DNA of 5,976 nucleotides from Betaproteobacteria bacterium (GTDB lineage: Bacteria; Pseudomonadota; Gammaproteobacteria; Burkholderiales; SG8-39). Location: contig JAOUGZ010000189.1 in assembly GCA_029865405.1 (NCBI GenBank), positions 1 to 5,976 of the forward strand. The letters are read 5' to 3'. The position numbers and the translations under genes are program-made. Positions 3,389 to 4,596 of this stretch are shown here, one piece after another. Positions within the stretch are counted from its first letter, which is position 1. Each line of letters begins with the position of its first letter. The notes under the pieces are model-generated. The model was not told where the DNA came from. It worked only from the letters and a program-made list of their open reading frames with translations, and did no database searches.

Positions 3389-4108
3389 GTGCCCGCGCGC
3401 CAGTACTGCCTGCGCGCGGCGCAGCGGGGTTTCACGCTGGTCGAGATCGCGATCGTGCTGGTCATCGTCGGCCTGCTGCTCGGCGTCATTTTCAAGGGCG
3501 AGGAACTGATCACGCAGGCGCGGGTGAAGAGCGTGATCGCCGAGTTCTCCGGTGTTTCGGTCGCCTATCATGGCTACTTCGACCGCTATGGCGCGTTGCC
3601 AGGCGATGACGCCGGTGCCGCGGCGCGCTGGGCAGTCACGAGCGGCGACGGCAACGCTCTGGTGGCGGGCACCTACAACAATGGCAACGCAGCGTGCGAC
3701 GCGAGCGTGGAAAGCTGCAGTTGGTGGGACCACCTGCGTCGCGCCGGCTTCATCTCGGGATGCGGCGCAACGCAACCGCGCAATGTGGCCGGCGGCCTGA
3801 CTGGCGTGCAAAGCGGCGACGGCACTGCGCCGACGTACGGCCCGGTACTGGGTGGCGCGGCGGGCGCGGGCGGGTTTTCCGTGCTGGCCTATTGCTCGGC
3901 GAACTTGTCGGAGTAGATCGCCATCGCCGTCGACACGCAATTGGACGATGGCTCGCGCACCACCGGTACAGTGCGCGGCATGTTGCAGGCTGCGCCGAAC
4001 CCGCCGATCGCGGTGGATGCCACGGCCGCTGCTGCGGGCGGCGTGGGCAGTTACGTGGAGACGGGGACCAACGTGTATACGCTTTGCCGCGCAATGCAGG
4101 CGCCCTGA
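3389..4108 (+). pseudogene. Type IV pilin-like / pseudopilin gene with one in-frame amber stop
   Basis: The gene starts at GTG 3389 and encodes a class-III (prepilin) signal: a 14-residue basic leader ending in Gly14, then FTLVEIAIVLVIVGLLLG with the conserved Glu at mature position 5. This is the substrate pattern of prepilin peptidase, which cuts after the glycine, and of pilus or type II secretion assembly. A globular domain with several cysteines follows. TAG at 3914-3916 (codon 176) ends translation after ANLSE, giving a 175-residue product. The same frame continues for 63 more codons to TGA at 4108, with protein-like sequence (AVDTQLDDGSRTTGTVRG; then AVDATAAAAGGVGSYVETGT and NVYTLCRAMQAP) and unchanged codon usage. 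The intact gene would encode 239 residues. The simplest reading is a recent nonsense mutation or a base-call error. The precise pilus or secretion system is not identifiable, and no assembly genes are adjacent. Confidence 0.75.
3914..3916 (+). other. In-frame TAG interrupting the pilin-like frame
   Basis: A single amber codon separates ANLSE from IAIAVDTQLDDG with no frame change. It is one base from TAC, TAT, AAG, CAG, GAG or TGG. Sequence quality cannot be judged from the window. Confidence 0.8.
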
Positions 4109-4144: not shown

Positions 4145-4585
4145 TCAGCGGGCACCGTAGCGCGCGTAGACCTTGGAGGTGCCGTCCGGGAGTATGAGCA
4201 GCACGTCATAGGGCTCGCTTCGTGGGCCTTCCATGCCCGGCGACCCCGCCGGCATGCCGGGCACGGCGAGCCCGATCGCCTTCGGGCGCTCTTTCAAGAG
4301 CCGCCTGATTTCGCGTACCGGAACGTGACCCTCGATCGCATAGCCCTCGATCACGGCGGTGTGGCAGGCGCCCAGCGCGTGCGGCACGCCGAGGCGCGAG
4401 CGGTAGAGCGCGGGATTACTGACGTCCTGCGGCTTCACACGGAAGCCGTTTGCTCGAAGATGGTCCATCCACGAGCTGCAGCAACCTCAGGTCGCGTCCT
4501 TATAGACGGTAACGCTTTCTGTGGCATGGGCCGCCATTGGCAAGAACGCCAGTGCCGTGGCAACCAGAAGACCGCGAAGATTCAT
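4145..4585 (-). CDS. Exported DUF411 (CopG-like) metal-binding protein, candidate selenoprotein
   Basis: The frame from ATG 4585 to TGA 4145 encodes 146 residues if the in-frame TGA at 4489-4487 (codon 33) is read as selenocysteine. Residues 1-21 are a signal peptide (MNLRGLLVATALAFLPMA, then AHA as cleavage site), so the mature protein is periplasmic. The domain begins SVTVYKDAT, followed by U33-G-C35-C36-S-S-W39, where DUF411 proteins normally have CGCCxxW. Downstream family landmarks are intact: DHLRANGF, the LGVPHALGACHTAV segment with Cys74-His75, GYAIEGHVP, AIGLAVPGMPAGSPGME, and the end PYDVLLILPDGTSKVYARYG. From established knowledge, DUF411 includes the copper-resistance protein CopG, whose conserved cysteines bind copper. 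ATG 4585 is preferred over ATG 4591 because AGGAG sits 6 bases before it. The alternatives are a nonsense mutation or a sequence error. Selenium insertion would require selA, selB, selC and selD elsewhere in the genome. Confidence 0.8.
4452..4476 (-). promoter_or_regulatory. Candidate bacterial SECIS stem-loop
   Basis: The stem-loop starts 10 nt after the UGA. The outer arms GCUCG and CGAGC form five perfect pairs. A U-U mismatch follows, then GGAU pairs with AUCU (four pairs, one G-U). The apical loop is GGACC, beginning 20 nt after the UGA. A short stem within the coding region, an apical loop of a few bases with G in its first two positions, and a spacing in the high teens to thirties are the known features of bacterial SECIS elements recognised by SelB. 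The fold was made by eye and no energy was computed. Confidence 0.55.
4487..4489 (-). other. In-frame UGA, candidate selenocysteine codon
   Basis: On the minus strand the codons read Asp-Ala-Thr-TGA-Gly-Cys-Cys-Ser-Ser-Trp. The TGA takes exactly the place of the first cysteine of the DUF411 CGCC motif (codon 33). A Cys codon (TGC or TGT) is one base away from TGA, so mutation is also possible. The coincidence of position and of the hairpin just downstream favours recoding. Confidence 0.65.
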
Positions 4586-4591
4586 CCTCAT

Positions 4592-4596
4592 CTCCT
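4592..4596 (-). promoter_or_regulatory. Ribosome-binding site of the DUF411 gene
   Basis: AGGAG lies 6 bases before ATG 4585 but directly abuts the alternative ATG 4591. This favours 4585 as the start, with MNLRGLL as the N-terminus. Confidence 0.7.

Follow-up and report, generated by a model that had tools for sequence, protein, structure and literature searches.

Does the single in-frame TGA of a DUF411/CopG-like gene end translation, specify an ordinary amino acid, or direct the insertion of selenocysteine (Sec), and, if the last, what would selenium do in such a protein? The question is raised by a minus-strand gene in a 5,976-nucleotide stretch of betaproteobacterial DNA, hereafter called the window.

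The frame, its family and its interior TGA

Translated on the minus strand, positions 4585 to 4145 give MNLRGLLVATALAFLPMAAHATESVTVYKDAT-U-GCCSSWMDHLRANGF...YARYGAR, with the stop codon at 4145–4147. As the preliminary description of this DNA had stated, the DUF411 frame is intact but for one TGA at codon 33 (4489–4487), its sole interior stop, which lies within VTVYKDAT-UGA-GCCSSW. The family membership claimed there was likewise borne out. Thus, the protein matches PF04214 with 93.9 bits (gathering cut-off 27; E = 4.7e-27), the model spanning only residues 72–118, and a solved CopG protein aligns to residues 25–145 (E = 1.4e-35, or 5.1e-42 in a profile search), on which ground the CxCC region is assigned to the DUF411 family as well. 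NCBIfam gave no match for the protein. At the position of the window's UGA, the solved CopG has a cysteine; the CxCC motif of CopG/DUF411 therefore appears here as UxCC, and is complete only if Sec is taken as the equivalent of Cys.

In a 44-sequence alignment, into which the window's UGA was entered as C, the invariant columns include 33, 35, 36, 39, 42, 74, 75, 87, 111 and 118, occupied by C/U, C, C, W, H, C, H, H, M and M, respectively. Cys35, Cys36, Trp39 and Cys74-His75, which had been described as intact, are correctly numbered and fall in invariant columns. An AlphaFold model in which Cys stood in for the UGA residue (mean pLDDT 83) found its best Foldseek match in CopG chain 6WJE_D (E 2.7e-15, 47% identity, TM 0.75/0.86), and all five structure matches with E < 0.001 are CopG chains (6WJE/6WIS). 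The protein is predicted from this model to fold as a CopG-type domain, the solved CopG (6WIS/6WJE) being its sole close structural match.

The neighbours in the window are ATP synthase subunits, recognised by eye, and a pilin-like gene and OmpA, both recognised by Pfam; no copper gene was recognised among them. The pilin/pseudopilin-like gene (N_methyl, 3389–4108, plus strand) has an in-frame TAG of its own at 3914–3916, past which the frame stays open to the TGA at 4106–4108. This TAG perhaps reflects decay or a sequence error.

Table 1. Features of the Sec-DUF411 locus, in window coordinates.
Feature	Position	Strand	Basis
Sec-containing DUF411/CopG coding sequence (putative), 146 residues plus TGA stop	4145–4585	minus	translation, homologues
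TGA at codon 33, in frame; proposed Sec in place of the first CxCC cysteine	4487–4489	minus	translation and homologue codons
SECIS-like hairpin, nt 13–39 counted from the T of the TGA	4451–4477	minus	folding, covariation, synonymous constraint
Probable signal peptide, residues 1–22	4520–4585	minus	by eye, sequence only
AGGAGA, Shine-Dalgarno-like, 5 nt ahead of the ATG	4591–4596	minus	sequence only
Cys35-Cys36, remainder of CxCC (here UxCC)	4478–4483	minus	invariant, 44-sequence alignment
Cys74-His75	4361–4366	minus	invariant, 44-sequence alignment
Met111 (GMPxGSPGM), candidate copper ligand	4253–4255	minus	invariant, 44-sequence alignment
Met118, candidate copper ligand	4232–4234	minus	invariant, 44-sequence alignment

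UGA among homologues and the Sec genes of their genomes

The codon at the site was read in 198 distinct DUF411 sequences. It is TGA in 51 (the window included), TGC in 123 and TGT in 24, and neither TAA nor TAG occurs, under a census motif pattern that excludes sequences with another stop within 39 codons after the site. Three loci (L083, L169 and L216) do not match the pattern and stand outside the census, and DNA was read only for fetched loci, at most 30 per search, plus 19 stretches. The preliminary description had placed the TGA at the first cysteine of CxCC/CGCC and had proposed a search for aligned U/C pairs in several species. The placement agrees with the TGC or TGT aligned there in the 147 Cys homologues, and the pairs were found, the 51 distinct TGA sequences extending over more than forty other genomes. 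The opposite case that it had considered, of relatives with Cys throughout and UGA nowhere else, does not hold, since 50 distinct sequences other than the window carry TGA at the same codon. One of these, L001, is 84% identical to its counterpart in the window and lies in the same surrounding gene order, which lends indirect support to the base read here.

A scan of species genomes yielded 12 TGA loci among the best 80 of 554, the other 68 being Cys loci; all 12 TGA genomes are metagenome-assembled. In taxon surveys, which overlap and some of which were sampled from larger groups, DUF411 matches were obtained around G001, the closest relative identified, in 100 of 369 genomes at class level, in 116 of 349 at order level and in 26 of 98 at family level; in the class and order surveys the matches outnumber the loci read, so that the TGA counts are lower bounds. 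The densest survey was made around G004, in a Burkholderiales-labelled family where 46 of 74 genomes have a match. Their 49 matches comprise 45 with TGA, three with TGC (L182, L208 and L214) and one unreadable (L216), and the TGA form is present in 43 of the 46 DUF411-bearing genomes. Outside this family, TGA genomes are G001, G010, G012, G1178 and G1179. The phylum of G010 gave matches in three of 198 genomes, G010 among them, and that of G012 in one of 198, G012 itself.

Several observations accompany the survey. Sec-DUF411 occurs in L020, from an assembly titled Thermodesulfovibrionia, and in L026, from one titled Deltaproteobacteria; with two other DUF411 matches and none, respectively, among the 198 genomes sampled from each phylum, these occurrences may reflect transfer or mis-binning. 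In genome G1262 a Sec-DUF411 and a Cys-DUF411 paralogue (L193 and L214, contig C120) lie about 10 kb apart. The Cys form L208:281 of G1264, a genome in which selB was found and tRNA-Sec was not, has Gly in place of the third motif Cys (CGCG). CusF-DUF411 fusions exist among the homologues (P0014, P0030, P0077 and P0112), and 3,457 plasmid records contain DUF411.

If UGA33 terminated translation, the locus would be a pseudogene, a sequencing error or the source of a re-initiated 107-residue downstream protein. Such a 107-residue form does exist in protein databases: P0003 is the same protein beginning at residue 40, past the UGA, and in the window an ATG follows the TGA by seven codons. We nevertheless regard termination as very improbable. 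At this codon 51 distinct sequences have TGA and never another stop, and coding constraint is seen on both sides of it. All 51 have a start codon 18–60 codons upstream of the TGA, and the 24 nt before it change at rates of 0.05, 0.07 and 0.35 for the three codon positions, which indicates coding selection just upstream; in the signal-peptide stretch (−60 to −25) the codon periodicity is weak (0.37, 0.33 and 0.55). Furthermore, 29 of the 51 have no ATG, GTG or TTG in the 14 codons that follow the TGA, and a re-initiated product would lack both the signal peptide and CxCC. P0003 also illustrates the expectation, voiced in the preliminary description, that gene callers would truncate the gene.

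Sec insertion would call for dedicated machinery, and nearly all examined genomes with the TGA form have selB and tRNA-Sec. Among the genomes of the scan, selB scored above the cut-off in 12 of 12 TGA genomes vs 4 of 14 Cys genomes (Fisher p = 2e-4), a p value that overstates independence because nine of the 12 TGA genomes come from one family, that of G004; it is generous also in that the 14 Cys genomes were drawn from the higher-ranking of the 68 Cys loci. A tRNA-Sec of at least 67 bits was found in the same 12 and 4 genomes, the threshold being set at a clear gap, as matches of about 48 bits elsewhere also pass the family cut-off. The selA gene was detected in 11 of the 12 TGA genomes and in the same 4 of the 14 Cys genomes. 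The exception is G001, where selA was not detected; its contig has the selB match from base 67 onwards, and tRNA-Sec starts 12 bases past the end of that match. Within the G004 family, 41 of the 43 TGA genomes have selB and 41 have tRNA-Sec; here, however, selB is uninformative, because 66 of all 74 genomes score above the cut-off. No selB match was obtained in G1233, no tRNA-Sec match in G1231 and neither in G1246, whose TGA-form locus (L209) may belong to an incomplete assembly, lie on a stray contig or be in decay. A positive control for Sec decoding is provided by the formate-dehydrogenase-type UGA (UGA-His) present in 4 of 18 genomes examined, namely G558, G1268 and G006, with matches above the family cut-off, and G010, with one below it.

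If a suppressor tRNA or a reassigned code supplied Cys or Trp at the UGA, with no selenium involved, the Cys found at the site in relatives would be accounted for. This is the least probable of the readings weighed here: UGA also serves as a stop in this DNA, since both the DUF411 gene itself and the preceding open frame at 623–1486 end in TGA, and the Sec machinery and the hairpin described below would be left without explanation.

A SECIS-like hairpin downstream of the UGA

The 54 nt from the TGA onwards align without gaps across the 51 Sec sequences, and contain a stem of 11 pairs (nt 13–23 with 29–39) closed by a loop of 5, in which 87.4% of the pair cells are standard. Slid to other registers, the stem is 26–51% paired. 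Four of five covariation measures were reached by none of 500 shuffles and the fifth, the number of pairs changed on both sides (5), by 19 of 500; the shuffles, like the Fisher tests, ignore kinship, for which the Cys control and distant members partly compensate. Thus, L020, a distant Sec member, keeps stem pairs with the letters changed on both sides. All seven core pairs form in 36 of 51 Sec vs 2 of 147 Cys sequences, and the 36-nt region folds with −16.6 vs −8.1 kcal/mol on average. Covariation is seen most directly between base 1 of codon 7 and base 3 of codon 9, where the Sec sequences have A-T in 34, A-C in 2, G-T in 1 and G-C in 14 (p = 1.3e-9), vs 13, 19, 46 and 63 in the Cys sequences (p = 1.0).

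Third-position differences tell the same story at the level of selection. In Sec pairs at least 80% identical (47 pairs), the hairpin region differs at 0.076 vs 0.283 downstream, and in those 70–80% identical (160 pairs) at 0.192 vs 0.429; for Cys pairs, the corresponding values are 0.257 vs 0.241 (22 pairs) and 0.445 vs 0.453 (79 pairs). Synonymous change in the hairpin region is thereby lowered two- to fourfold in the Sec forms and, because the effect is absent in the Cys homologues, the constraint is a property of the UGA form, not of the protein.

Of the 11 consensus pairs, the window itself has 9 and lacks two. The 50 nt from the TGA fold with −21.5 kcal/mol (z = −2.7) into two 5-bp stems separated by a mismatch, with GAC as the loop, 21 nt downstream of the UGA. 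This hairpin agrees with the bacterial SECIS rules given in PMC13188914, that is, a loop of 3–9 nt, a stem of 4–16 bp, a distance of 16–37 nt from the UGA, a G among the first two nucleotides of the loop and a minimum free energy of −7.5 or lower. Across the 51 sequences, the loop-G rule holds in 43 (8 fail) and the energy rule in 47 (4 are weaker than −7.5 kcal/mol). An unguided RNAalifold consensus has 8 pairs in total and retains 4 of the 11 hairpin pairs, the loop is unlike the GGUCU-type SECIS loop that the same genomes have in their formate dehydrogenase gene, and an Rfam scan of the window gave four weak matches, none of them SECIS-like and none at the DUF411 gene.

The Cys form L182 bears on the history of the hairpin. 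It has TGC at the site and is 90% identical to L007, with which it shares 50 of 51 bases in the hairpin region vs 347 of 405 across the wider gene region. It scores 74.1 bits against a hairpin model built from L001, L020, L026 and the window (whose own scores are 61–75), vs at most 46.9 bits or no match for 38 other Cys loci. From these sequence comparisons, L182 reads as a recent Sec-to-Cys change that kept the hairpin. Its genome, G1234, has a tRNA-Sec and no selB match; a loss of Sec decoding there was considered and set aside, since the tRNA was found and an incomplete assembly is equally likely.

A tree of 198 rows unites 43 Sec rows with L182 in one supported set (98*) and six Sec rows, L026 among them, in a second (97*), L020 and L213 being unplaced; in a 100-row tree under a richer model, those larger sets carry no star. 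Parsimony counts at least five changes on the former tree and at least four on the latter, two being forced by starred branches in each. Independent origins of Sec were not upheld: a single grouping of all Sec rows with L182 was not rejected (p-AU 0.80, 52 rows of Sec forms and L182 vs 48 Cys rows drawn at random from 146), which is compatible with one origin followed by one reversion and transfer.

Taken with the CopG homology and the copper context of the relatives, the conserved UGA, the relatives' Sec genes and the covarying hairpin argue for the selenoprotein reading of the preliminary description, to which the census and the apparent Cys revertant L182 lend further support. On this comparative evidence, UGA33 almost certainly stands for Sec and the gene would encode a selenoprotein. 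SelB with Sec-tRNA-Sec, guided by the hairpin located within about 12 nt downstream of the UGA, would decode the codon.

Copper context and the proposed place of Sec in CopG

What the selenium might do is suggested by the family. According to review passages (PMC7558416), proteins of the CopG type hold a tetranuclear copper cluster with the CxCC cysteines and two methionine residues, and possibly oxidise Cu(I). In L005, Pfam identifies, in order, an outer-membrane efflux protein, a multicopper oxidase, a cupredoxin, Sec-DUF411 and CusF. With five context queries (four proteins of L005 and the P-type ATPase of L002) and with some flanks short, homologues of copper-operon genes were found within 5 kb of 8 of the 12 first Sec loci (L002, L005–L008, L010, L013 and L024), the context of L002 consisting of a 27% multicopper-oxidase match and its own ATPase, itself a query. 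Pfam supports the copper neighbours of L005, L006 and L010. None of the five queries matched near L001, L004, L020 or L026. Since 33 of the 68 Cys loci have such homologues within the same distance, the Sec form has the usual context of the family.

We propose that Sec replaces the first Cys of CxCC, to give UGCC, in a periplasmic CopG (DUF411) copper-resistance protein. The protein would be exported and fold as a thioredoxin-like domain, in which the selenolate would join Cys35, Cys36 and Met residues close by in holding a polynuclear copper cluster; the selenolate ligand is deduced from the binding of the CopG cluster by CxCC (PMC7558416). Copper would be bound or oxidised, and might then be handed over to a multicopper oxidase, a cupredoxin or CusF. 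As a whole, a Sec-containing periplasmic CopG copper-resistance protein is an explanation to which we give a probability of roughly 0.9. By analogy with CopG, it is rather likely that Sec takes part in the copper cluster or in copper handling. On balance, we also favour the fuller picture in which Sec is a ligand of a polynuclear cluster, a Se-bridged centre for periplasmic copper detoxification, and in which this is the normal form of CopG throughout the Burkholderiales-labelled family.

Sec could also be inserted into a protein that has the thioredoxin fold and acts as a periplasmic thiol/selenol oxidoreductase, with no role in a copper cluster. The thioredoxin-like fold would suit such a function, glutaredoxin-like structures rank second in the structure search, L026 has a weak glutaredoxin match and L020 and L003 have YruB matches, all below the cut-off, and most uncharacterised selenoproteins are expected to be redox proteins (PMC13188914). 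We consider this unlikely, because CopG is by far the closest structure, both invariant Met residues and the remainder of CxCC are retained, and homologues of copper genes lie near 8 of the 12 Sec loci.

The nearest known system to the proposed copper-binding selenoprotein is CopG/DUF411 itself (6WIS, 6WJE), which the protein of the window resembles in fold, in the position of CxCC, in Cys74-His75 and in GMPxGSPGM, and with which its relatives share copper-gene neighbours. It differs in the first motif residue, which is UGA with a SECIS-like hairpin here, as opposed to TGC or TGT in the 147 Cys homologues. Other comparisons draw on single rows of a catalogue table. Thus, the thioredoxin-like selenoprotein Sec.2 (UxC, PF13192) also has Sec two residues before a Cys, but is a different family from DUF411. 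The distant Grx-like/UXX-star selenoprotein family 1 (NF041114) is glutaredoxin-like, and the DUF411 loci L020 and L003 have weak YruB-family matches; its motif is UxxT vs UGCC here. Catalogued selenoproteins with copper-related names, the SO_0444 family Cu/Zn efflux transporter and a CopZ-like (2Fe-2S) protein, are other families by their domain identifiers.

The preliminary description knew of no DUF411 selenoprotein, and the literature searched agrees. In full-text literature, with bioRxiv, subscription journals and GenBank names outside the scope, no paper was found that joins DUF411 with selenoprotein or selenocysteine; among the papers listed, titles and the opening lines of abstracts on CopG tetranuclear copper, the bacterial selenoproteome, groundwater selenoproteins, DUF411 and copper-resistance selenoproteins contained no such report. 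Table 1 of PMC13188914 (May 2026), a work stated to cover 119 prokaryotic selenoprotein families or subfamilies, has no PF04214, DUF411 or CopG, nor does a DUF411/CopG selenoprotein occur in the available portions of PMC12013277 and PMC9312934. These searches support the view that a DUF411/CopG selenoprotein had not been reported previously, although unpublished or automatic annotation is possible.

The finding would add a many-member selenoprotein family to the catalogue of PMC13188914, as its own table presents it, and would do so in a protein with a reported copper-cluster cysteine motif. It also corrects the annotation of P0003, which is filed at 107 residues without the signal peptide and the motif. 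More broadly, it makes the role of selenium in periplasmic copper chemistry testable, and L182 and its Sec relatives offer a natural Cys/Sec pair for that comparison.
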